Shown here piece after piece: positions 13,763 to 37,628 of a DNA stretch of 64,000 nt; positions within the stretch are counted from its first letter, which is position 1, and each line of letters begins with the position of its first letter. The notes beneath the pieces were generated by a model that was not told where the DNA came from, did not search any database, and worked only from the letters and a program-made list of their open reading frames with translations. A program made the position numbers and the translations under genes. The stretch covers positions 2,468,001 through 2,532,000 of the forward strand of contig NZ_AP024601.1 of the NCBI RefSeq assembly GCF_018326425.1, read 5' to 3'. The DNA is from Polycladomyces abyssicola. GTDB taxonomy: Bacteria > Bacillota > Bacilli > Thermoactinomycetales > JIR-001.

Positions 13763-14077
13763 TCATTGAACCTGGGAATTAAAAGTCATGACCCATAACG
13801 ATCCGGCAACAACGGCAAACGTAAACAAAAACCCGAGTGCGATCGCAATGGAATGATAAGCCGGACCGCGGCTTTCTGTGATATGCATAAAGAAGATCAA
13901 TTGTATCAGGATCTGAAGGATGGCCAGTGCCAATAAGATGGTAATGATGCTCCCTTGGGACAAGGGAGCTTTCACAGTGAACCACAGCGCCAAAACCGTC
14001 AGCACAATGGATCCGACATAGCCGATCACATGCGCCCAAGGGAAAGTCTTCTTTGATAAATGTTCTTTGTTCATCAT
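13763..14077 (-). CDS. qoxD: aa3-type menaquinol oxidase subunit IV
   Basis: Small membrane subunit of about 104 residues with three predicted helices (HVIGYVGSIVLTVLALWF, TILLALAILQILIQLIFFMH, AIALGFLFTFAVVAGSLWVM). The IQLIFFMHI segment is characteristic of COX4/CyoD family subunits that stabilise the oxidase. Start ATG 14077 overlaps the qoxC stop as ATGA; the frame is open further upstream but that part is the shadow of qoxC. Confidence 0.92.
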   Translation of the reverse strand: MMNKEHLSKKTFPWAHVIGYVGSIVLTVLALWFTVKAPLSQGSIITILLALAILQILIQLIFFMHITESRGPAYHSIAIALGFLFTFAVVAGSLWVMTFNSQVQ

Positions 14078-14691
14078 TTCATCACCCCCATGAGATAAAC
14101 GACCGTAAAGATCATCACCCATACCACATCCAGGAAGTGCCAATACAATCCAGCGTTGAATAATTTCCGGGCTGTCGTGGGTTGGATCCGATCACGAATC
14201 AGCTGGATCCCGACAGAGACCATCCAGACGATCCCCAGGGACACATGAAGACCGTGTGTGCCCACCAGAGTGAAGAACCCGGACAGGAACGCACTGCGCT
14301 GCATCGTGGCCCCTTCCAACGAATAAGTGATAAATTCATAGACCTCGATCCCGACAAACGCGAGACCGAGCAAGATGGTCACAGCCAGCCACCCCATGAG
14401 CCGTCCTAAATGGCCATTACGCATTTCACGCACAGCCAGTCCACAGGTAAAACTGCTGGTTAACAAGATAAAGGTTTCAAGCGTAAACATCGGAATGTCA
14501 AACAGCTGCGCCTCCGTTGGCCCCCCATCCGTATGCGTGCGCAGTAAGAGATAGGTGGCAAACAGACAAGCAAACAGCACAAGATCAGAAGCCAAGAAAA
14601 TCCAGAAACCAAGGATGTGTTTTTCTTCTTCTTCCATGCCATGTTCAAATAACTGCTGATTGGAGATCGGGCTTCCGGTTACTTCAGCCAT
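14074..14691 (-). CDS. qoxC: aa3-type menaquinol oxidase subunit III
   Basis: 205-residue heme-copper oxidase subunit III with five membrane helices. GFWIFLASDLVLFACLFATY near residue 28 and the FFTLVGTHGLHVSLGI segment near 137 are family signatures, and the short N-terminus (five helices, not seven) is typical of CyoC/QoxC quinol oxidases. ATG 14691 follows AGGGGG. It lies 12 bases after qoxB and overlaps qoxD by four. Confidence 0.95.
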   Translation of the reverse strand: MAEVTGSPISNQQLFEHGMEEEEKHILGFWIFLASDLVLFACLFATYLLLRTHTDGGPTEAQLFDIPMFTLETFILLTSSFTCGLAVREMRNGHLGRLMGWLAVTILLGLAFVGIEVYEFITYSLEGATMQRSAFLSGFFTLVGTHGLHVSLGIVWMVSVGIQLIRDRIQPTTARKLFNAGLYWHFLDVVWVMIFTVVYLMGVMK

Positions 14692-14703
14692 ATTACAACC
14701 CCC

Positions 14704-16647
14704 TTATGACGCTTCCATTTGCTTGATTTCGTCAACGGAAATCCAGTGGCCCGTATCTTTTTCAAGCGAACGCCACAGCATGCACACCACCACACCGATC
14801 AGCCCGACTGTAGCGATTATGAATTGGTTAAAGACCAAACCGAATCCGGCGACAAAGAACGCCAATCCCATGAAGAAAGGCAGAGATGAATTGTTCGGCA
14901 TGTGAATGGGTTTCAATGGTTCTTTCGTCGGCGGCAGAATGCCTTCTTTCCGCTGTTGTTTCATCTCCCACCAGGCATCACGTTCATTTACTGTGGGGAT
15001 TTGCGCAAAATTATAGTGTGGGACAGGTGACGGAAGAGACCATTCCAATGTGCGGCCATCCCATGGATCCCCTGTCGTATCGCGTTCCCCATAGCGGATG
15101 CTGTAAAGGATTTGAACGACGATAAAGAGAAATCCGATCCCCATCAAATACGCACCAATGGTTGAAACAAAATTGAGTGTTCCCCACCCTGTTTCAGCGG
15201 GATACGTGTACACACGTCGGGTCATTCCCATGAATCCCAGCGCGTATTGCGGCATGAAACAAACGTAAAATCCGATGTTGAAGAACCAGAACGCCCATTT
15301 GCCGAGGGTTTCGTTGAGTTTGAAGCCAAACATTTTCGGCCACCAGTAATACATCCCTGCAAGTAACCCAAATACCGCCCCACCAATCAAGGTCTGGTGG
15401 AAGTGAGCGATCACAAAATAACTGTTGTGAAACTGGTAATCTGCAGGTGCCGACGCCAACATAATCCCGGTTGCTCCACCGACCGCAAAACAGGGGATAA
15501 AGGTAAGCGACCAGAGCATCGGCAATGTGAGTCGAATCCGACCTCGAAACATCGTAAACAGCCAGTTGAAAACTTTTACCCCTGTAGGGATGCCAACAGC
15601 CATGGAAGCAACCGCAAAGAAACTATTTACCCCCGGACCTGCACCCATCGTAAAGAAGTGGTGTACCCAGACAAAGTAGCTGATCACGCTGATCAACATG
15701 AGAGAGGCAACCATCGATTTGTAGCCGAAAATCCGTTTCCGGCTGAATGTGCTGACGACCTCAGAAAGAATGCCGTAAACAGGAAGAATCGCAATATACA
15801 CTTCCGGGTGTCCCCAAACCCAAAAGAGGTTGACGTACATCATCGGATTTCCGCCATGAAGCATCGTAAAGAAATGGGTTCCGAAAATCCGGTCCATTCC
15901 CAAAAGCGCAAGTGCGACAGTCAAAGCGGGAAAGGCAAAGATAATGACAATACAAGATGCAAGAACAGACCAACAAAACAGCGGCATCTTCATGAGCGTC
16001 ATGCCGGGCGCACGCATTTTAAGAATCGTAACGATAAAGTTGATCCCCGTTGCAATACTTCCAATCCCGGAAATTTGCAGAGACAGAACGTAATAATTGA
16101 TTCCGGGACCAGGGCTATGTGACAACTCTGCGAGTGGCGGATAACTTACCCATCCTGCATCGGGGGAACCCCCGAGGATAAAGGAAAGGTTAAACAACAG
16201 AGCGCCAAAGAAAAACAACCAAAAACTTACTGCGTTCAAGAAAGGAAACGCTACGTCACGTGCTCCGATTTGCAGAGGAACCGCGATGTTCATCATGGCA
16301 AAAATCAAAGGCATCGCCACGAACAAAATCATGATGGTTCCGTGCGTAGAAAAGATTTCATTGTAATGTTGTGAATCCAAAAAGTTCATATTTGGAAAGG
16401 CAAGTTGGGTTCGCATGAGAAGAGCGTCTACGCCGCCTCGAAACAGCATCAGCAGAGCGCAAATCAGATACATGATCCCGATCTTTTTATGATCAACGGT
16501 GGTAATCCACTCGCGCCACAGCCATCCCCATTTCTTGAAGTACGTCAACGCAAATATGATGCCCAGCAGTGTCAAAACAGCGGCAACCGCTGACATCTGA
16601 ATCAACGGGTCAGCATTCCGCAAATATTCCACAATCTGATTGATCAT
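14704..16647 (-). CDS. qoxB: aa3-type menaquinol oxidase subunit I
   Basis: Catalytic subunit of 647 residues, the length of B. subtilis QoxB. Heme and copper ligands are all visible: low-spin heme His in STHGTIMILF (about 102) and HFH near 416-418, CuB and the cross-linked Tyr in VWGHPEVYIAI (about 280), and the His pair in VWVHHFFTMG (about 331). The GGVDALLMR region after helix I resembles the quinol-binding residues of Cyo/Qox enzymes. It reduces oxygen to water with menaquinol electrons and pumps protons. Ribosome binding site GAGAGGAGAAAGG. Confidence 0.96.
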   Translation of the reverse strand: MINQIVEYLRNADPLIQMSAVAAVLTLLGIIFALTYFKKWGWLWREWITTVDHKKIGIMYLICALLMLFRGGVDALLMRTQLAFPNMNFLDSQHYNEIFSTHGTIMILFVAMPLIFAMMNIAVPLQIGARDVAFPFLNAVSFWLFFFGALLFNLSFILGGSPDAGWVSYPPLAELSHSPGPGINYYVLSLQISGIGSIATGINFIVTILKMRAPGMTLMKMPLFCWSVLASCIVIIFAFPALTVALALLGMDRIFGTHFFTMLHGGNPMMYVNLFWVWGHPEVYIAILPVYGILSEVVSTFSRKRIFGYKSMVASLMLISVISYFVWVHHFFTMGAGPGVNSFFAVASMAVGIPTGVKVFNWLFTMFRGRIRLTLPMLWSLTFIPCFAVGGATGIMLASAPADYQFHNSYFVIAHFHQTLIGGAVFGLLAGMYYWWPKMFGFKLNETLGKWAFWFFNIGFYVCFMPQYALGFMGMTRRVYTYPAETGWGTLNFVSTIGAYLMGIGFLFIVVQILYSIRYGERDTTGDPWDGRTLEWSLPSPVPHYNFAQIPTVNERDAWWEMKQQRKEGILPPTKEPLKPIHMPNNSSLPFFMGLAFFVAGFGLVFNQFIIATVGLIGVVVCMLWRSLEKDTGHWISVDEIKQMEAS

Positions 16648-16684
16648 CCTGATTTCCCACCTTTCTCCTCTCTTCTACAAACAA

Positions 16685-17578
16685 TTAATGGTGCTCATGG
16701 CTCTCATGCTCTCCATGATGCATGCGCCAGTACATTCCACCGTTTTTATCGACAATCTCTCTATACAGTGTTGCCGGATACGAGGAATAAAGCTGTTTGT
16801 CGGCAATGCTTGGCTTGACGAGCTGATTGTATTTTTCCTTCGTCAAAGGAGGTGCAGATGCTTTGACACTTTTCACCCACAACTCAAACTCAGCCTGCGG
16901 TTTGGCGACCACTTGAAAGTTCATGTGCGCAAATCCTTTTCCAGTAAAGTTGGCTCCTTTACCGTCGTATACTCCGGGACGGTCTGCCTGCAGCCACAGG
17001 TACATCTCCATTCCCGGCATGGTGTACATCTGTCCGCCCAACTGCGGTACCCAAAACGAGTTCATGGGTGCGTCTGCCGTCAACACGAATTGCACAGGTA
17101 CTCCAGCAGGAATTTCAACGTAATTGACCGTCGCGATGTTCGATTCAGGATAGAAAAACATCCACTTCCAATCCAACGAAACCACTTGAATGGTCATTGG
17201 CTTTTGATTGGATGGCGGACGGGTCAGGGCAAATGTATCACGAACGGTAAATACTCCAAGAATGGCGACGATCAGTATGGGAATGCCCCACCAGATTACT
17301 TCCAGAATTTTGCTATCATCCCAATTTGGAGTGTAAGGTGCCTTGTTCCCGGGACGATCCCGGTAACGATACACCACATACACCATAATGGCCAGGACGG
17401 GAATCACAACTAGCATAGACAAAAGAAAGGTAATCATGATGTTCCAATTTTCAGTTCGCGCGACAGGACCGGCAGGATCGAGAAGGACAAATCGGTCACT
17501 GCATCCGGTCAACAGGAATAACAGAGCGAAGCTGAAAAGAACTTGTTTTAGCCGACTTGATATCCCCGTTTTCTTCAC
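16685..17578 (-). CDS. qoxA: aa3-type menaquinol oxidase subunit II (lipoprotein)
   Basis: Starts with a lipoprotein signal (LLFLLTGC, lipid-anchored C26 if GTG 17578 is the start), two membrane helices, then an extracellular cupredoxin domain. The CuA ligands of cytochrome c oxidases are absent; instead SFWVPQLGGQMYTMPGMEM matches QoxA, which is the decisive evidence for a quinol oxidase. The histidine-rich tail (HHGEHESHEHH) is notable. GTG 17578 is ten bases after GGGAG. The leader contains a Crp/Fnr-type promoter cassette about 40 bases upstream and a second copy further up. First gene of the qox-cta-hemQ operon. Confidence 0.94.
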   Translation of the reverse strand: MKKTGISSRLKQVLFSFALLFLLTGCSDRFVLLDPAGPVARTENWNIMITFLLSMLVVIPVLAIMVYVVYRYRDRPGNKAPYTPNWDDSKILEVIWWGIPILIVAILGVFTVRDTFALTRPPSNQKPMTIQVVSLDWKWMFFYPESNIATVNYVEIPAGVPVQFVLTADAPMNSFWVPQLGGQMYTMPGMEMYLWLQADRPGVYDGKGANFTGKGFAHMNFQVVAKPQAEFELWVKSVKASAPPLTKEKYNQLVKPSIADKQLYSSYPATLYREIVDKNGGMYWRMHHGEHESHEHH

Positions 17579-17579
17579 A

Positions 17580-17683
17580 GGTTTCACACTCCCATAGTCA
17601 GACTGAATTTTTGTCTGTGGAATGATGTAAGCGGTATCAGACGAAGTGAATGTGATGAATTTCACAAAAAGGCTGTCCACAGA
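17580..17683 (-). promoter_or_regulatory. Promoter cassette P1 of qoxA (class II Crp/Fnr-type box)
   Basis: Minus strand, from upstream: half site TTCTGTGGAC (17674-17683), box TGTGA-N6-TCACA at 17651-17666, 21-base gap, -10 TACATC (17624-17629), and the leader element GGGAGTGTGAAACC (17580-17593). The box centre falls at -41.5 from the expected start near 17617. The leader element doubles as the qoxA ribosome binding site. Five sister cassettes occur in this window. Confidence 0.75.
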
Positions 17684-17765
17684 ATACCGGCGTTCGTTAT
17701 CGTTTTGTCCTTAACCACTCATAAACCATATTTCATAGTGAAACTGAATTTTGTCTGTGTAAAAG

Positions 17766-17830
17766 AGTGTAAGCGTTATCGGGCTAAGCTATTGTGATGG
17801 ATGTCACAAAAGAAAGAGGTGTTCACAGAA
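17766..17830 (-). promoter_or_regulatory. Promoter cassette P2 upstream of qoxA (class II Crp/Fnr-type box)
   Basis: Minus strand: half site TTCTGTGAAC (17821-17830), box TGTGACATCCATCACA (17793-17808), 21-base gap, -10 TACACT (17766-17771). It has the same orientation as P1, about 140 bases further upstream, and shares ACAGACAAAATTCAG after the -10. It lacks the GGGAGTGTGAAACC leader element. Confidence 0.7.
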
Positions 17831-17865
17831 TATCGACATTGCGGTTACAATTTTGTCACTTAACA

Positions 17866-18074
17866 GGGCGTGTCCGCATTGTTTTCCCAGCTTGCTCGCC
17901 CGCACCCTGCCCGGAAGCAGACCATGGCCTCTGAACCGGAAAGACAAAGTGCGCTTCATAGAGGAAATGACCCGTGATTCGATCCTCACGCTTTACCGGT
18001 TCATCGTTCGGTTGGGCTCAAGACTCGCTCATCCGGGAAAACCTCTCCCTATCACGGAATAAACAGACACGCCC
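17866..18074. repeat. 209-bp element with 9-bp terminal inverted repeats (possible MITE or IS relic)
   Basis: GGGCGTGTC at 17866-17874 and GACACGCCC at 18066-18074 bound a segment without a gene. Inside, GAACCGG (17933-17939) and CCGGTTC form a further inverted repeat around GCGCTTCATAGAGGAAA. Related wording (ACGCTTCATAAGGAAA inside a hairpin) occurs at 10844-10859. No transposase is encoded, so it may be a miniature element or the remains of an insertion sequence. Confidence 0.4.
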
Positions 18075-19200: not shown

Positions 19201-20223
19201 TTAAAATTTGAAGACCAGTCGTGCTTTCGCTTGCGCTTTTTCTACTTCTTCAAAGGCTTCGTGCACTTGATGAAGGTGTCTGGTCTCATAGATGACTTTT
19301 GTCCGCCCCTCCGCATGCAATTGGAACGTTTCCTCCAGATCGGTGCGGGTACCTACGATGGACCCAATCACCTGGATACCGTTGAAAACGGTCTCAAAAA
19401 TGGGAAGCTGCACGTAGTTGTCCGCTGGCAACGCAACAAGGACGAGGCGGCCGCCGCGGCGCAGAGAATGGAAAGCTTGCTCAAAGGCCTTGGGCGAGAC
19501 AGCCACGCTGATGGCTGCATCGGCGCCACCCAGTTTCTTGATCTCTTCCACAGGGTCCTGGTACCGGGCGTTGACCACATAGTCCGCTCCCAGCTCCTTG
19601 GCCAGTTGCAACTTCTTATTGAAGAGATCGACAGCCACCACCGTCGCCCCTGTCACTTTGGCGTATTGTAGGGCCAGGTGGCCGAGCCCGCCGATGCCGA
19701 AGATGGCCACGAGGTCCGACGGTCTGGCACCGGACATCTTCACCGCCTTGTAGGTGGTCACCCCGGCGCAGGTCAAGGGCGCCGCATCCAGCGGGTTGAT
19801 GCCGTTAGGCACCTTGACGATGTGTTTGGCGTAGCTGATGGTGTATTCGGCGTGGGTGCCGTCGATGGAGTAACCGGTGTTAAACTGGGACTGGCACAAC
19901 GTCTCCCAGCCGGAGTTGCAATATTCACAATTTCCGCATGCGTAACCCAGCCAAGGGAGAGCCACCCGGTCCCCTTCCTTGATCCCCGTTACTCCTTTTC
20001 CCACCGCCTCCACGATACCGATCCCTTCATGTCCCGGGATAAAGGGCAATTTCGGTTTGACCGGCCACTCCCCTTTGGCCGCGTGAATATCAGTGTGGCA
20101 CAATCCTGAGGCTTCGACTTTTACACGAACCTGTCCCACTCCGGGTTCCGGAATATTCACTTCCTCAATGCGAACCGGTTCCGCAAAGTCCCGTATAACC
20201 GCGGCCAGTATTTTTTTAACCAT
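19201..20223 (-). CDS. Zinc-dependent alcohol dehydrogenase (AdhA/AdhT type)
   Basis: 340-residue medium-chain dehydrogenase that interconverts ethanol and acetaldehyde with NAD. Catalytic zinc ligands are C42 (GLCHTD), H65 and E66 (PGHEG) and a later Cys (LTCAGVTTYKA). Structural zinc uses C96, C99, C102 and C110. The NAD motif is GIGGLGHLA (about 173-181). Sequence closely follows Geobacillus AdhT. I use ATG 20223; the frame is open for 49 more codons upstream but that part has no homology and holds only leader sequence. Two Crp/Fnr-type promoter cassettes lie about 220 and 300 bases upstream, which suits a fermentative enzyme. Confidence 0.93.
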   Translation of the reverse strand: MVKKILAAVIRDFAEPVRIEEVNIPEPGVGQVRVKVEASGLCHTDIHAAKGEWPVKPKLPFIPGHEGIGIVEAVGKGVTGIKEGDRVALPWLGYACGNCEYCNSGWETLCQSQFNTGYSIDGTHAEYTISYAKHIVKVPNGINPLDAAPLTCAGVTTYKAVKMSGARPSDLVAIFGIGGLGHLALQYAKVTGATVVAVDLFNKKLQLAKELGADYVVNARYQDPVEEIKKLGGADAAISVAVSPKAFEQAFHSLRRGGRLVLVALPADNYVQLPIFETVFNGIQVIGSIVGTRTDLEETFQLHAEGRTKVIYETRHLHQVHEAFEEVEKAQAKARLVFKF

Positions 20224-20394
20224 CTCTTCAGATCGCACCTCCCAAAAAAGCATGATCGCCAAGATTGTGCCATTAGGGCGACGGGAGAATGGTTGGGCGT
20301 ATCGGATATCAGCGAAGATGACCACGGTCACCATCCGCGATGGATACGGCCAACCCCTCACTCTCGTCAATTAGGGCCCCATGTGTTTTTCAAA

Positions 20395-20505
20395 GGTTTC
20401 ACACTCCCATCATCATGCTGAAAATGTTGCCTGTGTACATCAGCGTAAGCCGAGTTGGAGAAAGGTAATGTGATGGATTTCACAAAAAATGGGTCGTTCA
20501 CAGAA
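20395..20505 (-). promoter_or_regulatory. Promoter cassette P3a upstream of adh (class II Crp/Fnr-type box)
   Basis: Minus strand: half site TTCTGTGAAC (20496-20505), box TGTGAAATCCATCACA (20469-20484), 21-base gap, -10 TACGCT (20442-20447), leader element GGGAGTGTGAAACC (20395-20408). Expected start near 20435, giving adh a leader of about 210 bases. Confidence 0.72.
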
Positions 20506-20527
20506 AATCTACATTACGGATATACTT

Positions 20528-20583
20528 AACGTAAGTGGTATCGGAAAATGCGAATGTGATATGTTTCACGATCGTTCACAGAA
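20528..20583 (-). promoter_or_regulatory. Promoter cassette P3b (tandem partial copy) upstream of adh
   Basis: Minus strand: half site TTCTGTGAAC (20574-20583), box CGTGAAACATATCACA (20555-20570), 21-base gap, -10 TACGTT (20528-20533). One half of the box is imperfect (CGTGA). Only three bases separate the half site from the box, compared with 11 in most copies. It is fused directly to P3a. Confidence 0.62.
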
Positions 20584-20611
20584 AGTCAACATTACGGTTG
20601 GAGTTTTGTCA

Positions 20612-20639
20612 TTGACTACACAGAGGGATATCGTATTGA
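20612..20639 (+). promoter_or_regulatory. Promoter of the first Crp/Fnr-family gene
   Basis: -35 TTGACT (20612-20617), 16-base spacer, -10 TATTGA (20634-20639). The identical arrangement occurs before the second copy at 24532-24559. It starts where the divergent cassette P3b ends, so the same bound regulator could affect both directions. Confidence 0.5.
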
Positions 20640-20723
20640 ATTTTATTGGGAAAAATTTGTTTGGAAGAACGATACCTGGTTGCAACTTTGCTGCCACTCC
20701 CCCAAAAAAGTGAGGCGGTATGG

Positions 20724-21419
20724 ATGGACCGTAAATTCGAGATTCTCAAATATGTCCCGCTGTTCAGTGAATTGACAGATGAAGATTTGGAAAAAATCGT
20801 TCGTATTGCGGTTTTACGGCACTATCGAAAGAATTCAACGATCTTTGTGGAAGGGCAGCCATTTAGCACGGTTTACTTCATTCAATCGGGAATCGTCAAG
20901 GTCACAAAGGTAGAGAAAAACGGAAACGAGCAGGTCATCTGCCTTCTGCGACAAGGGGATATGTTTCCCCACGTGGGATTTTTCGGCGATTCACCGTATC
21001 CCGGAACGGCCGTAACTGTCACGGACTGCCAATTGTTAGCGATATCAATGGACGATTTCGATCGATTGTTGGATTCAAATCCGCTCATCGCAAAATCAGT
21101 CATGAAAATGATGGATCAAAGGCTTCTTTATTTGCAAAGACGCTTGCAAGATGTGATTTCGGGAGATGTCCATCAAAAAGTTGTGGTGACCTTGTTACGG
21201 CTGGCAGAGGAATACGGGACTCAGAGGGAGGATGGTGTTTTTGTTTCCATTCCGTTAACCCATCAAGATTTTGCCAATATGTTGGGAATGTCACGGGAAT
21301 CGGTCAACCGTGTGCTCAATCAGCTAAAAAAAGATCAGTTGCTTGACATCAATCGAAAAGGCATCTTGATTTACGATCCGGATGCACTGCAACGTACACT
21401 CTCCCCTGTTAAAGAATGA
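20724..21419 (+). CDS. Crp/Fnr-family transcriptional regulator, copy 1
   Basis: 231 residues: cyclic-nucleotide-binding-like beta-roll (about 1-120, with GIVKVTKVEKNGNEQV and GDSPYPGTAVTV), dimer helix (about 135-160) and C-terminal winged helix (SIPLTHQDFANMLGMSRESVNRVLNQLKK). The recognition helix RESVNR matches the R-E-x-x-x-R pattern by which CRP reads TGTGA. There is no cysteine cluster for an iron-sulfur centre and no conserved cAMP pocket, so the signal is unknown. ATG 20724 follows GAGGCGGT; upstream in-frame codons lack a ribosome binding site. Differs from copy 2 at 24647 by only scattered substitutions. Likely activator of the promoter cassettes (inference). Confidence 0.9.
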   Translation: MDRKFEILKYVPLFSELTDEDLEKIVRIAVLRHYRKNSTIFVEGQPFSTVYFIQSGIVKVTKVEKNGNEQVICLLRQGDMFPHVGFFGDSPYPGTAVTVTDCQLLAISMDDFDRLLDSNPLIAKSVMKMMDQRLLYLQRRLQDVISGDVHQKVVVTLLRLAEEYGTQREDGVFVSIPLTHQDFANMLGMSRESVNRVLNQLKKDQLLDINRKGILIYDPDALQRTLSPVKE

Positions 21420-21439
21420 CAAAAAACAGGGGCTTTTTT
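21403..21439 (+). terminator. Terminator overlapping the end of Crp/Fnr copy 1
   Basis: CCCCTGTT (21403-21410) pairs with AACAGGGG (21425-21432), followed by CTTTTTT. The left arm lies in the coding sequence before the stop, exactly as at copy 2. Confidence 0.72.
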
Positions 21440-21468
21440 ATGCAAAAAATCACAATGAGATTGATCCA

Positions 21469-21565
21469 GAAAGGGTTGATTTCGATGACAGTTGTGGAGA
21501 TCAAACAAGAAATTACCGGGTAAAAAGGGATTTCCCGTACTCAAGTAACTGATGTCAATCTGGTT
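21469..21565 (+). pseudogene. Relic of the cupin gene 5' end
   Basis: From AGAAAGGG at 21469 to about 21550 this is nearly identical to the start of the cupin gene at 26050: ATG 21485, then MTVVEIKQEITG, after which the GAA codon of the intact gene is TAA here. Similarity fades after ACTCAAGT. The join to the sequence after the Crp/Fnr terminator shows that about 0.65 kb, including the hemerythrin-like gene, was deleted from this copy of the locus. Confidence 0.8.
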
Positions 21566-21668
21566 AACATATTTACCTATTGTTTTGGAGGCACACAGAG
21601 TGGATCGTGATTTTTTTCAGAAGACTTACTCATTGTTACACCGGGCATTACCACTACCACAAAGTGTG

Positions 21669-22031
21669 TTAAGCGTCACATTTGACTTGTTTTTCGACCC
21701 ATTCCTTCAAGACCACGGCATTATTTCTTTCCCTTTCCTTACTCGCATAGAGAAATGTGATCAATTTACCAGCGGCTTTATTCAAAATGCGGCGCCATGC
21801 TTCGACTTTTTCCGGTGTATCGAGTTCGTGCAGATACGCTTCCCGGAATTCTCCAAAATCACGGTCGCGGTGGTACTTTTTACGCAAATCGTCAGAAGGG
21901 GCCAACTCTCGGGCCCAACAATCGATCGCCGCCGTAACTTTTTTAACGCCGCGCGGCCACAGCCGATCAACCAATATGCGAAAGCCATCGGTTTCATTCG
22001 GAGAATCGTATATCCGTTTCAGCCGTATCAT
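21669..22031 (-). CDS. DUF488 (YeaO-like) family protein
   Basis: 120-residue cytoplasmic protein with the DUF488 signature IYDSPNETDGFRILVDRLWPRGV (about 7-29) and a central WARELAPSDDLRKKYHRD stretch; the C-terminal half ends in LITFLYASKERERNNAVVLKEW. The biochemical function of the family is not established. ATG 22031 follows GGAGGGGAG. It lies 138 bases after ywiC on the same strand and could be co-transcribed with it. Confidence 0.85.
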   Translation of the reverse strand: MIRLKRIYDSPNETDGFRILVDRLWPRGVKKVTAAIDCWARELAPSDDLRKKYHRDRDFGEFREAYLHELDTPEKVEAWRRILNKAAGKLITFLYASKERERNNAVVLKEWVEKQVKCDA

Positions 22032-22169
22032 ATGGAAACTCCCCTCCTTTTCACGGGAACTGGCACCTTGAGCTTCAGTATTCAGGATGCCGGTTCATTT
22101 TTTGTGTCCAAAAATGTGTCAAATCGTCGTATGGGAAAAATATCCCCCCTCGCCACTCACAAAAACGAT

Positions 22170-22886
22170 TCACATTACCATGAGCACGACAGTTAAGGCA
22201 ACAAATTGTAACGCATTGGCAAATTCTATGATTCCCGCTTGTTTTGGGGTGATCTCTTTTCCACCCCAGATCCACAGGCGGATCAGTGGAAATATAAAAA
22301 CCAAAGCAAGTTTAGCCTGTCCCAGTATCAGCGGCATCAAAACGGATAAAGAACTATAGAGTTTGGCATATTTCATCCAGTGGGGGTTCTTTCTTTCGCG
22401 AATCACCGACTTCACGAAGAAAACGGTTCCGACAAAATAAAGCACAGTATAAAAGAAAAGCCAAAATGCTGTCGCATCCCACTTACCAGTGCCAAATACA
22501 TAAGCGGCAACCCCGCCCGCGGCAAAACCCAGGATGGCACAAATATCATTCAGCATAGCGCGCTCACGCCGCCGTGTAACAAAATAAAGATTAATGGCGT
22601 AAACCGTACAAAATAACGGGGCAAACAGCCACAAAACCGGCTCTTTCCATAGAGGAAGAAGTACCGACAAAAAACCGATCAGCCAATAAGCACTTCCCCA
22701 GACCAAGTAACGTTTTTCTTTCCTTTTCACCCATTGCGTAACAGCGTATGAGGCCAAATAAAAGAAAAACCAAGCAGAAAAGAGAAGCAGATGCTCCGGC
22801 CGGGGTTGTCCCAACAGTGTTCCCAACAGGAACGGAGCGGTCAACATCACCCAACCGCCGTGTTCGTGCGGAATGACCCATTTCAT
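22170..22886 (-). CDS. YwiC-like integral membrane protein
   Basis: 238 residues with about seven membrane helices. The opening MKWVIPHEHGGWVMLTAPF is the hallmark of the YwiC family; the role is unknown. In B. subtilis ywiC lies beside fnr, narK and the nitrate reductase genes (established context), and here it again sits between a Crp/Fnr-type gene and hmp, which points to a role under oxygen limitation or nitrogen-oxide metabolism. ATG 22886 follows AAGGTGATG. Confidence 0.82.
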   Translation of the reverse strand: MKWVIPHEHGGWVMLTAPFLLGTLLGQPRPEHLLLFSAWFFFYLASYAVTQWVKRKEKRYLVWGSAYWLIGFLSVLLPLWKEPVLWLFAPLFCTVYAINLYFVTRRRERAMLNDICAILGFAAGGVAAYVFGTGKWDATAFWLFFYTVLYFVGTVFFVKSVIRERKNPHWMKYAKLYSSLSVLMPLILGQAKLALVFIFPLIRLWIWGGKEITPKQAGIIEFANALQFVALTVVLMVM

Positions 22887-23082
22887 CTATCATCACCTTG
22901 TCATCATACCAGAAATACCGGATACAGTACTTTATTATACCGGAAGACCTCCCTGACACCCGTTGTTGCAATCGGTTCTTTTCATCTTCCCGAAAATGGA
23001 GAATGGCTTGAGAAGAAGCTCAAGCCAAGATAAAATCCATATTTTTCTATATTATCCTCACATCAGAGATGTAGCGGTACTC

Positions 23083-24306
23083 TTAATCCTCACCCAATGT
23101 ACTCATTGGGCCAAAGGCTTCATAGTGGATCCGCTCTTTGGGAATATCCATTTGTCTAAGCGCCCGGTAAATGACTTGCATAAATGGAATGGGCCCGCAT
23201 AGATAAAACTCTCCTTGAGTATTATCCAAAATGGACTCTAACCACGCCTGATCAATAAACCCTTCTTTATCGAAGGATTCAGTCCTCCGGTCTTCTTCGG
23301 TTGGTGATTCATAACAGACATATGATCGGATATTGCTATTTTGGGATGCCAAACGGGCAACGTGTTCCTTCATGGCGTGATGTCTTCCATTGATCGCTGC
23401 ATGAATGTAAGTCACTTTTCGACCGGGCTGTTTTTCGATAATCGTGTTTAACATGCTAATCATTGGCGTTAGGCCTACGCCTCCGCTGATCAACACAACT
23501 GGATTCATTGATTTGGTATTCAGAATAAAATCCCCAGCAGGGGAGCTAAATTCTAAAATGCCACCCTCTTGAATATTCCGATGCAGGTAATTGGATACAA
23601 TCCCAGCAGGGTTCCCATTACGCGCATCTTCGCGTTTGACACTGATACGGTAATAATCCTTACCGGGAGCATCTGATAAACTGTAGTGGCGAATATGCGT
23701 ATATTTTTCGCCTGGTATTTTTGCCTTTAAGGTTAAGTATTGCCCAGGTTGAAATTGCGCGATTGCTTTTCCATCCGCAGGTTTTAAATAGAACGAATTG
23801 ATCACGTCACTTTCTTTTACCTTTTTCACCACCACAAATTCCCGAAAACCTTCCCAACCGCCTTCTTGTGCCCTAGCTTGATCATACAATTCTTGTTCAA
23901 TCTCTATGAATATGTCGGCGATGTATTGATAAGCTTTTTCCCAAGCCTGAATGATCTCTTCCGTTACTTGATTGCCCAATACATCCTTCACTGCTTGAAT
24001 CAGATGTTTACCTACAATGGGATAATGCTCTGGCACAATACCAATGGCCCGATGCTTATGACAAATCCTTAAGATGATCGGTTTGATCGCATCTAAATGA
24101 TCCATGTGTTCTCCGCATATGTAAACAGAATGAGCAAGAGCTCGCTGCTGTACACCTCGTTTTTGGTTTGTCTGATTAAAGATATTGTACAACTCCGGGT
24201 GACTTTCAAACAGTAATTGATAAAAACGTTTACCGATTGCCTCACTGTTTTTTTGAAGTACCGGAGCTGTTGATTTGACGATTTCTATGCTATGGGTCTC
24301 AATCAT
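23083..24306 (-). CDS. hmp: Flavohemoglobin (nitric oxide dioxygenase)
   Basis: 407 residues: globin domain (about 1-140), FAD domain (about 150-260, RHYSLSD) and NAD domain (about 265-400, GGVGLTPM and YLCGPIPFM). The key globin residues fall at the same numbers as in E. coli Hmp: Tyr29 (B10), Gln53 (E7) and proximal His85. It oxidises NO to nitrate in the cytoplasm using O2 and NAD(P)H. ATG 24306 lies ten bases after GGGGGA; the frame extends 11 codons upstream without a better site. Driven by promoter cassette P4; a palindrome in the leader may be a second control site. Confidence 0.95.
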   Translation of the reverse strand: MIETHSIEIVKSTAPVLQKNSEAIGKRFYQLLFESHPELYNIFNQTNQKRGVQQRALAHSVYICGEHMDHLDAIKPIILRICHKHRAIGIVPEHYPIVGKHLIQAVKDVLGNQVTEEIIQAWEKAYQYIADIFIEIEQELYDQARAQEGGWEGFREFVVVKKVKESDVINSFYLKPADGKAIAQFQPGQYLTLKAKIPGEKYTHIRHYSLSDAPGKDYYRISVKREDARNGNPAGIVSNYLHRNIQEGGILEFSSPAGDFILNTKSMNPVVLISGGVGLTPMISMLNTIIEKQPGRKVTYIHAAINGRHHAMKEHVARLASQNSNIRSYVCYESPTEEDRRTESFDKEGFIDQAWLESILDNTQGEFYLCGPIPFMQVIYRALRQMDIPKERIHYEAFGPMSTLGED

Positions 24307-24372
24307 TTCAAAATATCCCCCTTCATAGTAAGAGATCAATAATAAGATTTCCTTTTTTTCACGCTATACTTG

Positions 24373-24395
24373 ATGCTCGTCATTTTGATAAGCAT
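24373..24395. promoter_or_regulatory. 23-bp interrupted palindrome in the hmp leader
   Basis: ATGCT..TCA..TGA..AGCAT symmetry over 23 bases, located about 40-60 bases downstream of the expected P4 start site and 67 bases before the hmp start. Its size and A/T-rich ends resemble NsrR-type operators (two half sites around an 8-bp centre), but the half sites do not fit the published consensus well. Could be a roadblock operator for an NO-responsive repressor. Confidence 0.35.
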
Positions 24396-24439
24396 TGATG
24401 TTACACAGTGTTTCCAGTGTAGCTTTGTTTATGTAAATA

Positions 24440-24503
24440 AGTGTAAGCGGTATCGGACAAAGTAATTGTGATGGATATCACAAAAAATAGTTCGTTCACA
24501 GAA
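24440..24503 (-). promoter_or_regulatory. Promoter cassette P4 of hmp (class II Crp/Fnr-type box)
   Basis: Minus strand: half site TTCTGTGAAC (24494-24503), box TGTGATATCCATCACA (24467-24482, perfect TGTGA/TCACA), 21-base gap, -10 TACACT (24440-24445). Expected start near 24433. It lacks the GGGAGTGTGAAACC leader element of P1, P3a and P5. Confidence 0.75.
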
Positions 24504-24531
24504 AGTCAATATTACGGTTGGAGTTTTGTCA

Positions 24532-24559
24532 TTGACTACGCAAAGGGATATCGTATTGC
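24532..24559 (+). promoter_or_regulatory. Promoter of the second Crp/Fnr-family gene
   Basis: -35 TTGACT (24532-24537), 16-base spacer, -10 TATTGC (24554-24559). Sequence from about 24494 to the gene start is almost the same as that before copy 1, showing that the duplication included the promoter and the flanking half site. Confidence 0.5.
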
Positions 24560-24646
24560 ATTTTTTGGGCACAATTTGATTGGGAGAACAATATCTGATT
24601 GCAGCTTTGCTGCCACTACCGCATAAAAAATGTGGAGGCGGTATGG

Positions 24647-25342
24647 ATGGACCGCAATTTCGAGATTCTCAAACGTGTTCCTTTGTTCAGTGGATTGACA
24701 AATGATGAATTGGAGAAAATCTCTCATATTACGGTTTTACGACACTATCGAAAGCATTCAACGATCTTTGTGGAGGGACAACCGTTTCGCACGGTTTACT
24801 TCATTCAATCGGGAATTGTCAAGGTCACAAGGGTCGAGAAAAACGGAAACGAGCAGGTCATGGGTCTTCTGCACAAAGGAGATATGTTTCCCCACGTGGG
24901 ATTTTTCGGCGATTCACCGTATCCCGGAACAGCCGTAACTGTTACGGACTGCCAATTGTTAGCGATATCGATGGACGATTTCGATCGATTGTTGGATTCA
25001 AATCCGCTCATCGCAAAATCGGTCATGAAAATGATGGATCAAAGGCTTCTTTACTTGCAAAGACGCTTGCAAGAGGTGATTTCGGGCGATGTCCATCGAA
25101 AAGTTGTGATCACCTTGTTACGGTTGGTGGAGGAATACGGGACTCAGAGGGAGGATGGTGTTTTTGTTTCCATTCCGTTAACCCATCAAGATTTTGCCAA
25201 TATGTTGGGAATGTCACGGGAATCGGTCAACCGTGTGCTCAATCAGCTAAAAAAAGATCAGTTGCTTGACATCAATCGAAAAGGCATCTTGATTTACGAT
25301 CCGGATGCACTGCAACGTACACTCTCCCCTGTTAAAGAATGA
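24647..25342 (+). CDS. Crp/Fnr-family transcriptional regulator, copy 2
   Basis: 231 residues, nearly identical to copy 1 at 20724; the last third, including the recognition helix RESVNR, is unchanged. Differences cluster in the N-terminal sensing domain (for example FEILKRVPLFSGLTNDELEKISHIT and EQVMGLLHKGD compared with EQVICLLRQGD). No iron-sulfur cysteines. The shared DNA-binding domain means both should read the same operators, while their sensing halves have begun to diverge. ATG 24647 follows TGGAGGCGGT. Followed by a terminator and then the hemerythrin-like and cupin genes. Confidence 0.9.
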   Translation: MDRNFEILKRVPLFSGLTNDELEKISHITVLRHYRKHSTIFVEGQPFRTVYFIQSGIVKVTRVEKNGNEQVMGLLHKGDMFPHVGFFGDSPYPGTAVTVTDCQLLAISMDDFDRLLDSNPLIAKSVMKMMDQRLLYLQRRLQEVISGDVHRKVVITLLRLVEEYGTQREDGVFVSIPLTHQDFANMLGMSRESVNRVLNQLKKDQLLDINRKGILIYDPDALQRTLSPVKE

Positions 25343-25363
25343 CAAAAAACAGGGGCTTTTTTT
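25326..25363 (+). terminator. Terminator overlapping the end of Crp/Fnr copy 2
   Basis: CCCCTGTT (25326-25333) pairs with AACAGGGG (25348-25355), followed by CTTTTTTT. Same structure as at copy 1. Confidence 0.72.
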
Positions 25364-25495
25364 ATGCAAAAAATCACAATGAGATTGATCCAACTCATGT
25401 ACATTTGTATTGAGCCACGGGGCAACGAGATGGAAGGTTGGTATCGTACACAGTGATACAACTGGTATCCATTTTTCCGTGAGAGGAGAATCAAT

Positions 25496-26044
25496 ATGGC
25501 GAGACCCAGCTATCAACCCAAACTCGATTTAACGGATTGGAAAAAAACAAATACACAGGAGTTCGAAAAAATCCGATCGATCGTGGCACCCGAACTGCAT
25601 TCTTTTATCGAAGAACACGCTGCTTTAAGTCAGTTGATGGATCAGGTGAGGGAAGGCTATCATACCGAGCTTTATCACAAGGCTTTGGATACAATCGCTC
25701 ATGAATTGGAGCATCATTTTTTGTACGAAGAAAAATATATTCTTTCTCGTTTGGCAAATCATATCACAGAGACGGAAGTGGGCCCCATTGCTAAATTAAA
25801 AAACGAACACAACATCATTCGAAAACATTATCAGGAAGCGATGGTCCTGTTTCAAAATCATGATCCCGAAAACCCTTCACAGGAACTCGTACAAAAGATG
25901 GGGCTGCTTGCCTATCTGTTAAAAAAGCATATTGAGAAGGAGGATCATTACCTTTTCCCACTGTTTAGCGTGATTTTGACTCAAGAGGAAAAAGCGGCGA
26001 TCGCCCATGATGTCCATCTTCATACATCAACCAGAAAGGGATGA
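25496..26044 (+). CDS. Hemerythrin-like (HHE cation-binding) protein
   Basis: 182 residues, all helical, with HHE metal-ligand residues spread over two helical pairs: H41 in FIEEHAAL, HELEHHFLYEE (about 69-79), KNEHNII (H105) and KKHIEKEDHYLFP (H145, E149, H151). Such proteins carry a di-iron site and bind O2 or NO, or repair iron-sulfur clusters (family knowledge); the exact role here is unknown. ATG 25496 follows GAGGAG. It overlaps the cupin reading frame region and lies downstream of a Crp/Fnr gene and hmp, which suggests a part in NO/O2 handling. Confidence 0.87.
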   Translation: MARPSYQPKLDLTDWKKTNTQEFEKIRSIVAPELHSFIEEHAALSQLMDQVREGYHTELYHKALDTIAHELEHHFLYEEKYILSRLANHITETEVGPIAKLKNEHNIIRKHYQEAMVLFQNHDPENPSQELVQKMGLLAYLLKKHIEKEDHYLFPLFSVILTQEEKAAIAHDVHLHTSTRKG

Positions 26045-26049
26045 TTTCA

Positions 26050-26376
26050 ATGACAGTTGTGGAGATAAAACAAGAAATTACCGGGGAAAAAGGGATTTCC
26101 CGTACCCAAGTGCTGGATTTTGACCAGGGAGTCGTCGTGAACCTGCAAGTAAAAGCGGGGAAAAAGATTCCCCGACACCATGCGAACTGCCATGTGCTCG
26201 TTTATGTAGTCAGCGGGGAAGTATGGTTTGGCGTATCTGAGCAGCGATTTCACTTAAAAACGGGTTCCTTACTCCATATGAACCCGTTTGAAGAACATGA
26301 TATTGAAGCGATACAAGATTCCAGCTTGCTCGTTATAAAAACAGGTTCCCAAACCGGATGCAATATTCGTGCGTGA
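26050..26376 (+). CDS. Small cupin-domain protein
   Basis: About 108 residues forming one conserved cupin barrel. The metal-binding first motif is KKIPRHHANCHVLVYVVSGE (about 37-56) and the second is NPFEEHDIEA (about 80). Function unknown; single-domain cupins of this kind often bind iron or small ligands. I start at ATG 26050 because AAAGGGATGA precedes it and the same start is kept in the relic copy at 21485, where the alternative ATG (26041) is not conserved. Five bases after the hemerythrin-like gene, so the two form an operon. Confidence 0.78.
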   Translation: MTVVEIKQEITGEKGISRTQVLDFDQGVVVNLQVKAGKKIPRHHANCHVLVYVVSGEVWFGVSEQRFHLKTGSLLHMNPFEEHDIEAIQDSSLLVIKTGSQTGCNIRA

Positions 26377-28412: not shown

Positions 28413-29699
28413 CTACGTTAACATGACTTGCATATCTGCTTGTACATCCCCAATCAATTTTAAGCCAAATCTCTCTTGTAATACTTGCAACACGCCTGGC
28501 GAAATAAACTCAGGAGCTTTCGGTCCAATACGGATATCTTGAATACCTAAGCTTAACAACCCCAATAGGATGGCAACTGCTTTTTGCTCAAACCAAGATA
28601 ACACGATACTGACTGGCAGTTCGTTTACCTCACATCCAAATGCTTCGGCTAGTGCAGCCGCAATCTTCACAGTGGAAATCGAATTATTACATTGCCCTAA
28701 ATCAATATAGCGTGGAATATCTGTACCTGGTACTACTCCGTAATCTACATCGTTAAAGCGGAACTTGCCGCAAGAAGTGGTTAGAATAACCGTTTCAGGT
28801 GGCAAGGATGTGGCTAATTTTCGATAATATTCCCCACCTTTCCCTGGAGCGTCACAACCTGCAATGACAAAGAAGCGCTTAATTTTTCCATCTTTCACAG
28901 CCTGGATAATTTCCGGTGCCATTCCTAGTACTGTCTCATGGTGGAAGCCTGTAACGAGCTCTTGATCAGACTCTATATTCACTTCTGGAAGCTCTAAAGC
29001 ACGCTTGATCAATGGTGTAAAATCATCATTTTCAATTTTTTGTACTCCTTCAAGCCCTGCTACATCGTAAGAGAAGAAGCGGTCTGCATACGTACCTTTA
29101 ATGGGCATGACACAGTTCGTTGTTGCTAAAATAGCGCCCGGGAATTTTTCAAACAGCCTTCTTTGATCAAACCATGATTTACCGATGTTCCCTTTTAAAT
29201 GAGGATACTTTTTCAGTTGAGGATAACCATGTGCTGGTAACATTTCGGAATGTGTATAAATGTTAATCCCTTTATCCATCGTTTGCTCTAATAATTTTTC
29301 AAGTGCAAGCAAATTATGCCCTGTTACCAAAATTGCTTTTCCTTCTATTTTATTTTGGCTAACACGAACGGGCTGTGGAATCCCAAAGCGTTCTGTATGA
29401 GCACGATCTAGCAATTCCATAACCCGGATCGCTGCTTGCCCAACTTTCATCGCCATCTCAAAATGCTCTTGCTCATTAAAGTTGGAATTGGTCAGTGTCA
29501 TGTAAAGTGCTTCATGTGTGGTAGCATCTACAAACGGGTCGGTATATCCGAGCTGATAAGCATGTGTACGATATGCAGCGATCCCTTTTAACCCAAAAAC
29601 CAAAATATCTTGCAAACTAGCGATCACTTCGTTTTTTCCACAAACTCCGATAATTTTACATCCACCCATTGGTGTCTGCTCACATTGGTGACAAAACAT
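28413..29699 (-). CDS. hcp: Hybrid cluster protein (hydroxylamine reductase / NO-related)
   Basis: 428 residues. N-terminal cluster cysteines C3, C6, C14 and C20 (CHQCEQTPMGGCKIIGVC), then hybrid-cluster ligands in ATTNCVMP, IAGCDAPGKGGEYY, TTSCGKFRF and DLGQCNNS. Hcp reduces hydroxylamine in vitro and acts on NO/S-nitrosylation chemistry in cells under anaerobic nitrosative stress. It is the short Bacillota form, lacking the extra helical domain. ATG 29699 has GAAGGAGGAAGGG upstream; the ten codons before it overlap that site. Base use is more AT-rich than its neighbours, which may indicate transfer. No promoter cassette lies directly upstream. Confidence 0.94.
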   Translation of the reverse strand: MFCHQCEQTPMGGCKIIGVCGKNEVIASLQDILVFGLKGIAAYRTHAYQLGYTDPFVDATTHEALYMTLTNSNFNEQEHFEMAMKVGQAAIRVMELLDRAHTERFGIPQPVRVSQNKIEGKAILVTGHNLLALEKLLEQTMDKGINIYTHSEMLPAHGYPQLKKYPHLKGNIGKSWFDQRRLFEKFPGAILATTNCVMPIKGTYADRFFSYDVAGLEGVQKIENDDFTPLIKRALELPEVNIESDQELVTGFHHETVLGMAPEIIQAVKDGKIKRFFVIAGCDAPGKGGEYYRKLATSLPPETVILTTSCGKFRFNDVDYGVVPGTDIPRYIDLGQCNNSISTVKIAAALAEAFGCEVNELPVSIVLSWFEQKAVAILLGLLSLGIQDIRIGPKAPEFISPGVLQVLQERFGLKLIGDVQADMQVMLT

Positions 29700-29933: not shown

Positions 29934-30482
29934 TCACTCGGGCTCGATCAAACCGTAACGCCCGTCTTTTCTGCGGTATACTACGTTCACTTCATCAGTC
30001 TCTGCGTTGAAGAACACAAAGAAGTGATGTCCGAGCAGTTCCATCTGGATGATGGCTTCTTCCACGTCCATCGGTTTTAATTGAAAACGCTTCGTGCGCA
30101 CCACTTTGGGTTCGGCTTCCTCATCCACCAAAGCGTTAGCGGTGTTTCCGTTTTCAACAAGCTGCGAACGGAGGCTTCCTTCCTGACGGAGTTTGCGGTT
30201 GATCTTGGTTTTATACTTCCGTATCTGCCGTTCCAATTTTTCCACGACCAGATCAATGGACGCATACATGTCCGCGCTTTTTTCCTCCGCGCGAACCAGC
30301 ACGCCCGGAAAAGGAATCGTCACTTCTACCTTGTGATCATCGTGAATCACGCTGAGGGCAATGTGTGCATCGGCGGAAGGAGGGGGGTCGAAATACTTTT
30401 CCAGACGGCTGATCTTTTTTTCGATAAAACTCCGCAAAGCATCCGTCACGTCGAAGTTGTTGCCACGAATGACATAATTCAT
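29934..30482 (-). CDS. hpf: Long-form ribosome hibernation promoting factor
   Basis: 182 residues: N-terminal S30AE domain (about 1-105, MNYVIRGNNFDVTDALR) that binds between the 30S subunit decoding and peptidyl sites, a linker, and a C-terminal dimerisation domain (about 125-180, VRTKRFQLKPMDVEEAIIQMELLGHHFFVFFNAET) that joins two ribosomes into 100S particles. ATG 30482 follows AAAGGGGGG; the longer open frame upstream is leader. Promoter cassette P5 lies about 150 bases upstream, which would couple ribosome hibernation to the same signal as qox, adh and hmp. Confidence 0.95.
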   Translation of the reverse strand: MNYVIRGNNFDVTDALRSFIEKKISRLEKYFDPPPSADAHIALSVIHDDHKVEVTIPFPGVLVRAEEKSADMYASIDLVVEKLERQIRKYKTKINRKLRQEGSLRSQLVENGNTANALVDEEAEPKVVRTKRFQLKPMDVEEAIIQMELLGHHFFVFFNAETDEVNVVYRRKDGRYGLIEPE

Positions 30483-30593
30483 GAAGCGAACCCCCCTTTT
30501 CGCTTTATCAACGTGTTTCCATGAACCTTGATGTCCAGATGACACCCCTTCAAAGACGGTGTAATGATGGCTATTTTTGCCTATTTATCCAAA

Positions 30594-30702
30594 GGTTTCA
30601 CACTCCCGAAGTGAAATTGAAATTTTGTCTGTGTAAATAGCATAAGCCATATGAGACAAAGTTAATGTGATAAATTTCACAAAAAAGGGGGTGTTCACAG
30701 AA
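30594..30702 (-). promoter_or_regulatory. Promoter cassette P5 of hpf (class II Crp/Fnr-type box)
   Basis: Minus strand: half site TTCTGTGAAC (30693-30702), box TGTGAAATTTATCACA (30666-30681), 21-base gap, -10 TATGCT (30639-30644), leader element GGGAGTGTGAAACC (30594-30607). Expected start near 30632. Best -10 of the six copies. Confidence 0.75.
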
Positions 30703-30739
30703 AATCAGTATTACGGTAAACGTTTTATCACTTGACTAA

Positions 30740-31053
30740 TCTTAAAAGTTTAAAGCATGGGCGAATGGAAACCACGTGAAATGATTTACAAACTCGCTTA
30801 TGCATCTTGATGAAACCGTATTGAATGCCATGATGGTCCTCTCCGCGGTTAGTAAGGAGCAACTACTCGTCTCATGACAAGTTGTCTACCGCGAATCAAG
30901 ATTCCAAACGATGGCACAGATAGCACCCAAATTGCTAGAAGTCACAATGAAAAATCCTAATGGTATATGACCATTGTGAACGGCAAAACTGTTCAATAGT
31001 GGCCAATGATCAATTTTGCCGCAGTTGATTCGCGGGTGGAGGGGCTTCGACAA
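30740..31053. other. Intergenic stretch between hpf promoter and cydD
   Basis: No gene seen. TTGACT at about 30729 on the plus strand belongs to the outer end of cassette P5, without a convincing -10. I could not identify the cydD promoter or a Rex site here. Confidence 0.35.
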
Positions 31054-37283: not shown

Positions 37284-37628
37284 GTGCGATCCGGGTCACC
37301 CCACATCAAGCCAAACTCCTGTGGGAAAGGTACCGAACGCCAATTGGGAAGTGCCAGTGTCTCATACACACAGATCTATTTGTTCAATATATCACATAAT
37401 TATTGTTCCATCCCCCACATCACATATCGCAAAAATCCTTTAATTACAAGGATTAATAGCGTTAATCGGAATCGTTTATTATTCTCTATCATGCATTTAC
37501 GTGAAATTATTCACAAATTATTCATCCCATTGATCTACGTCTGGGAGTATAATGAAGCTGAACAATCAATACTGTTTCGCAGTGAATGGATGAGCTCATC
37601 CCCTGATCTGCTTGAAGGGGTGTTCCCT
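37284..37628 (+). other. Leader region of lctP-ldh
   Basis: The plus strand is open here in frame with lctP but lacks any family similarity or ribosome binding site, so I treat it as leader. It holds an AATCCTT/AAGGATT hairpin at 37434-37454 and the Rex-like operator at 37499-37516. A -10-like TATCAT at about 37487-37492 lies just upstream of that operator. Confidence 0.5.
37499..37516. promoter_or_regulatory. Rex-like operator upstream of lctP-ldh
   Basis: ACGTGAAATTATTCACAA fits the Rex box TTGTGAA-N4-TTCACAA with a perfect right half and two mismatches at the outer edge of the left half. Rex represses ldh, lctP and cyd genes in Bacillota until NADH rises (established). The site overlaps the region just after a possible -10, a normal place for repression. 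Confidence 0.6.

Follow-up and report, generated by a model that had tools for sequence, protein, structure and literature searches.

A duplicated, partly gene-converted Crp/Fnr-type regulator as a predicted local activator of respiratory and nitric oxide-detoxification genes in Polycladomyces abyssicola

A 64,000-nt stretch of the Polycladomyces abyssicola genome (contig NZ_AP024601.1, positions 2,468,001 to 2,532,000; hereafter the window) carries two closely related genes for Crp/Fnr-family regulators, copy A (20724-21419) and copy B (24647-25342), both on the plus strand and each encoding 231 amino acids. An earlier reading of the sequence, here called the first-pass annotation, had taken the two for diverging sensors that compete for one set of operators. 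Our analysis points elsewhere: the pair looks like a routine duplication of an ordinary regulator, not two rival sensors, and the explanation that best covers the whole, which we consider probable, is a local, dosage-type activator, duplicated and partly gene-converted, of genes for respiration and nitric oxide (NO) detoxification. The duplication, the conversion, the geometry of operator boxes and promoters and the synteny are read from the DNA itself; from them we infer binding, activation, the signal and the dosage role.

Both reading frames are intact (stop-free in copy A), and their products share 91% amino acid identity. Pfam domains (cNMP_binding, HTH_Crp_2 and Crp in copy A; PF00027, PF13545 and PF00325 above cut-off in both) place them in the Crp/Fnr superfamily, and AlphaFold modeling returned the standard Crp fold with a mean predicted local distance difference test score of 86. 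The complete 3.197-Mb genome has only four regulators with a cNMP domain, and the nearest named protein relatives of the pair come from Thermoactinomyces (66-71% identity). In a gap-free alignment the copies differ at 46 of 696 nt and 20 of 231 residues; 16 of the 20 replacements fall within the first 80 residues, mostly in the N-terminal helices (residues 4-29), the final difference is nucleotide 483 of the coding sequence (codon 161), and everything from codon 162 to the stop is identical, which upholds the original description of an identical DNA-binding third. Past the coding sequence, the terminator and about 30 nt 3′ of it are the same except for one T, and both copies end in a hairpin whose 8-bp stem overlaps the stop codon and is followed by T6-7. 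The 200 nt upstream are about 80-90% identical and include a common predicted promoter core, at 20606-20634 on the plus strand for copy A (TTGTCA, 17 nt, TATCGT; a consensus match, with a match count not above shuffled expectation) and at 24526-24554 for copy B (consensus match only), so the near identity of terminators and promoters noted at first also holds.

The identity of the DNA-binding third is best explained, from the pattern of substitutions, by recent gene conversion within this genome. The predicted tract of copy A spans the end of the coding sequence, the terminator and about 30 nt beyond (21207-21468, plus strand) and equals 25130-25392 of copy B. Synonymous divergence (dS) between the copies drops from 0.35 in codons 1-80 to 0.15 in codons 81-160 and 0.02 in codons 161-231, whereas in all other pairs tested the last third gives 0.19-0.27, with 11-17 nt changes across this 216-nt stretch at the 3′ end. 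Along the row of 145 genus-polymorphic sites, A and B agree at each of the last 25 (permutation p 0.001, against p 0.017 or more for the remaining nine pairs), and a tree of the 3′ part unites A and B (bootstrap 87) while a tree of the 5′ part does not. The check for gene conversion that the first-pass annotation had proposed thus gives a consistent answer by all three routes.

The recognition helix (SRESVNR) is identical in both proteins. Its residues R191, E192 and R196, invariant in 22 aligned sequences, correspond to R180, E181 and R185 of CRP, and R180/E181 in the recognition helix correlate with TGTGA motifs (PMC1274295), in line with the early suggestion that this helix suits TGTGA. Six boxes of the family TGTGA-N6-TCACA (tighter form TGTGATNNATNTCACA), already noticed in the first pass, are indeed found within 13 kb, five perfect and one with a single mismatch, all on the minus strand: 17651-17666 (TGTGATGAATTTCACA), 17793-17808 (TGTGATGGATGTCACA), 20469-20484 (TGTGATGGATTTCACA, upstream of adh), 20555-20570 (TGTGATATGTTTCACG, the one with the mismatch), 24467-24482 (TGTGATGGATATCACA, upstream of hmp) and 30666-30681 (TGTGATAAATTTCACA, upstream of hpf). 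Identical helices and a single box family suggest that A and B share one operator set.

Genome-wide there are 11 perfect boxes, five of which lie in this 13 kb, and six occurrences of TGTGATNNATNTCACA (control 0). The sixth of these lies between a truncated globin gene and a further Crp/Fnr gene. This perfect box, at genome position 2276151 (L005 1501-1516), is centered at -41.5 of the globin gene, just 3′ of the third Crp/Fnr gene, and is likely a distant member of the regulon. The perfect boxes at 271814, 735927, 1660518 and 2601407 are without the TGTGATNNATNTCACA form and have no respiratory neighbor recognizable by eye; the one at 1134641 lies upstream of an open reading frame that resembles, by eye, a DoxX-family protein. 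Rex was also considered as the owner of the six local boxes and appears unlikely: they read TGTGAT-N5-TCAC, unlike Rex sites, which read TTGTGAAW4TTCACAA (PMC2883068). A separate Rex-like sequence, CGTGAAATTATTCACA, is located at 37500-37515, upstream of lactate permease/ldh genes.

The boxes hold a fixed position relative to putative promoters. All 17 of 17 cassettes from three species have, in minus-strand reading, a TAnnn[T/C] hexamer that starts exactly 21 nt past the box; within the window the hexamers are TACATC (box 17651, predicted ctaC promoter), TACACT (17793), TACGCT (20469), TACGTT (20555), TACACT (24467) and TATGCT (30666). If the hexamer is taken to start at -12, the box center comes to lie at -41.5, which is the class II position for activators of the FNR type (PMC4886647). 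The boxes are therefore predicted to be class II activator sites for four minus-strand genes: ctaC (16685-17600; caa3 oxidase subunit II, Pfam COX2, first gene of an operon with oxidase reading frames at 14074-17600), adh (19201-20220; zinc alcohol dehydrogenase, Pfam ADH_N and ADH_zinc_N, divergent from copy A), hmp (23083-24309; flavohemoglobin, an NO dioxygenase, NCBIfam NF009805 above cut-off, divergent from copy B) and hpf (29934-30482; long-form ribosome hibernation factor, Pfam Ribosomal_S30AE and Ribosom_S30AE_C). Outside the window, 12 gene-facing box sides were tested, and five of them carry TAnnnT at the same offset, where the background is 0.7% per position; the five belong to ctaC and an aldo/keto reductase gene of Thermoactinomyces daqus, hmp (TATAAT) and ctaC of T. 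vulgaris, and, in the present genome, the globin gene. A promoter cassette some 130 bp long, with the box, the -10 element, a common leader (ACAGACAAAATTTCAG...GGGAGTGTGAAACC) and TTCACAGAA/TTTTGTCA elements, recurs six times in one orientation at the respiratory genes (17570-17866, 20385-20640, 24424-24554 and 30584-30741). The cassette of the six local boxes is kept in two sister species (G001 and G002), the genus mates used for comparison throughout.

The surroundings of the copies record how the pair arose, a tandem-duplication context that adds to the first-pass annotation. Copy B is followed on the plus strand by a gene for a hemerythrin-domain (HHE) protein (25496-26044; Pfam Hemerythrin), found beside the regulator in G001, G002, L011 and L016, and by a small cupin gene (26050-26376; Pfam Cupin_2), syntenic in G001, G002, L011 and L013. 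After copy A, the hemerythrin gene is lost and a remnant of the cupin 5′ end persists (21466-21546, plus strand; 94% identity to 26031-26111), which indicates that a crp-HHE-cupin unit was duplicated and then decayed on one side. G001 has two copies in a different arrangement, in which tdh and hcp separate the copies and HHE-cupin follows the second one, and G002 has a single copy in the order adh-crp-HHE-cupin-tdh. Bootstraps in the 5′ part are low (52-59), and the duplication may be shared with G001 or independent. In G001, a partial tdh copy after crp2-HHE-cupin is the scar of a larger duplication there.

The local gene order runs caa3 oxidase, aldo/keto reductase, adh, crp A, DUF488, ywiC, hmp, crp B, hemerythrin, cupin, tdh, hcp, hpf, cydCD and cydAB (tdh and the cyd genes named by eye from sequence), with hcp at 28413-29699 on the minus strand (hybrid cluster protein; NCBIfam NF003658 and TIGR01703 above cut-off). 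The neighborhoods in G001 and G002 match along caa3-aldo-adh-crp-HHE-cupin-tdh-hcp-hpf-cydC; the DUF488, YwiC-like and hmp genes between the two copies (21669-24309) are without a match in the 32 kb that surround the regulator in either genus mate. In several further genera (L011, L013, L016, L022 and L026) the regulator is syntenic with hmp, HHE, hcp or caa3, and in L022 and L026 it adjoins hcp. The recurrence of hmp, hcp, hemerythrin, globin and oxidase genes as targets or neighbors across genera points to control of respiration and NO defense.

We hypothesize that A and B are paralogs of one conserved Crp/Fnr-type activator of Thermoactinomycetaceae-like Bacillota, whose local crp-hemerythrin-cupin block was duplicated before the copy A side lost its hemerythrin gene and most of its cupin gene. 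Both proteins would bind TGTGAT-N4-NTCACA boxes as dimers, mixed A/B dimers being likely, and class II activation from -41.5 would switch on the divergent caa3 oxidase, adh, flavohemoglobin and hibernation factor genes. The signal would probably be NO, low oxygen or redox state, and the regulators' own genes are probably controlled as well. A second copy would most likely alter dosage and widen regulatory coverage, not add a new signal, and recent gene conversion holds the DNA-binding end and the terminator identical. Such a system would form a compact regulon for respiration and nitrosative stress in Thermoactinomycetaceae, with one box family, a fixed -41.5 geometry and six sites in 13 kb.

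Some observations weigh against this activator model. Duplication and descent have left the boxes of the 17 cassettes partly homologous, so they are not 17 independent cases; no perfect box occurs in the upstream region of hcp itself; and the N-terminal ratio of nonsynonymous to synonymous divergence (dN/dS) between A and B, 0.30, is somewhat above the 0.12-0.22 of other genus pairs, which, together with the replacements I72M and C73G at pocket positions, makes mild functional divergence possible. One alternative is that the second copy is a transient, functionally redundant duplicate without a selected role, its similarity owed to chance conversion and recency. The copy numbers of 2, 2 and 1 within the genus, the differing arrangements and the decay already seen in the hemerythrin and cupin genes flanking copy A would suit such a history; we nevertheless think it unlikely, since the pair, with a 5′ dS of about 0.35, dates back roughly as far as the species splits, and even so neither frame is broken and dN/dS stays below 1 throughout (0.26 overall), as expected of two copies under purifying selection.

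The original proposal, two true sensors that read different signals (for example NO versus O2 or redox) through the same operators as an integrated or competitive switch, has a similarly small chance of being right. In its favor are the identical recognition helices, the clustering of replacements in the first 80 residues, the raised N-terminal dN/dS, and replacements 72 and 73, the only two of the 20 that map to positions lining the cyclic AMP (cAMP) pocket of CRP (L61 and S62). Against these stand equal change between other genus members (8-19 differences in residues 1-80, compared with 16 between A and B), a phosphate-cassette motif (GDMFPHVGFFGDSPYPGTAVTV) and a dimer helix (residues 120-142) identical in both copies, the single copy of G002, and the fact that the identical part is the conversion tract. 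The sensing halves do diverge, as the first-pass annotation had said, though no more than is ordinary within the genus; the first 80 residues appear simply fast-evolving, and selection for two signals is not needed to account for the pattern. A small difference in specificity between the copies is possible. The case illustrates that gene conversion can give two regulators the appearance of a single DNA-binding module that has two sensors. The rival idea that the C-terminal third is identical through strong DNA-binding constraint, not conversion, can be set aside as highly improbable: the recognition helix is identical across all genus sequences, but so, between A and B, are the synonymous sites and the non-coding terminator, and the divergence of the other pairs over the same 216 nt already contradicts a constraint-only account.

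Neither copy has the three or four clustered cysteines of iron-sulfur FNR proteins (E. coli N-terminal or B. subtilis C-terminal type), copy A having C73 and C102 and copy B C102 alone. The cAMP contacts of CRP are likewise replaced in both, with His83 at E72, Tyr92 at R82 and no Arg nearby, and Leu137/Gln138 at T127/S128, and the NCBIfam CRP model scores 104-111 bits against a cut-off of 266, which does not identify a cAMP-responsive CRP; both absences had been recognized at the outset. The only lead to a ligand is an invariant Pro-His within F81-P82-H83-x-G85, conserved in 22 of 22 aligned sequences, including all four Crp/Fnr proteins of the genome. It is conceivable, at rather long odds, that F-P-H-x-G marks an undescribed type of sensor for NO, O2 or another redox ligand, with A/B homo- and heterodimers of differing sensitivity acting on one set of class II promoters. 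Searching the literature for the F-P-H cassette or for Crp/Fnr proteins of Thermoactinomycetaceae turned up nothing relevant; the Pro-His cassette offers a concrete residue target for ligand or cofactor binding.

Among known systems, CRP, GlxR and MtbCRP provide the closest folds (template modeling scores of 0.88-0.90) and a similar recognition helix, while the cAMP contacts E72 and R82 of CRP are not conserved in the window proteins. CooA, the CO-sensing Crp relative, offers a weak lead only: its heme ligand His77 aligns with His83 in profile and multiple alignments, but in CooA the region equal to CRP 72-82 is deleted, making room for heme, with Pro2 as N-terminal ligand (PMC12937710), whereas region 83-94 of the window proteins is complete and the heme-accommodating gap is absent. 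Bacillus subtilis Fnr has the same operator consensus, TGTGANNNNNNTCACA (PMC8151001, Table 1), and respiratory targets; unlike it, the window proteins lack the C-terminal cysteine triad for a [4Fe-4S] cluster. The HcpR regulons of anaerobic bacteria also pair a Crp/Fnr-family regulator near hcp with the same type of motif, wTGTGAnnnnnnTCACAw in Desulfovibrio, and often include hemerythrin-like genes (Rodionov et al. 2005, PMC1274295). Here hcp, hmp and HHE genes lie nearby and a box stands upstream of hmp, a likeness of neighborhood and motif; the difference from HcpR lies in the company of the window regulators, which is caa3 oxidase, hmp, adh and hpf, and in their host, a Bacillota genome equipped with terminal oxidases.

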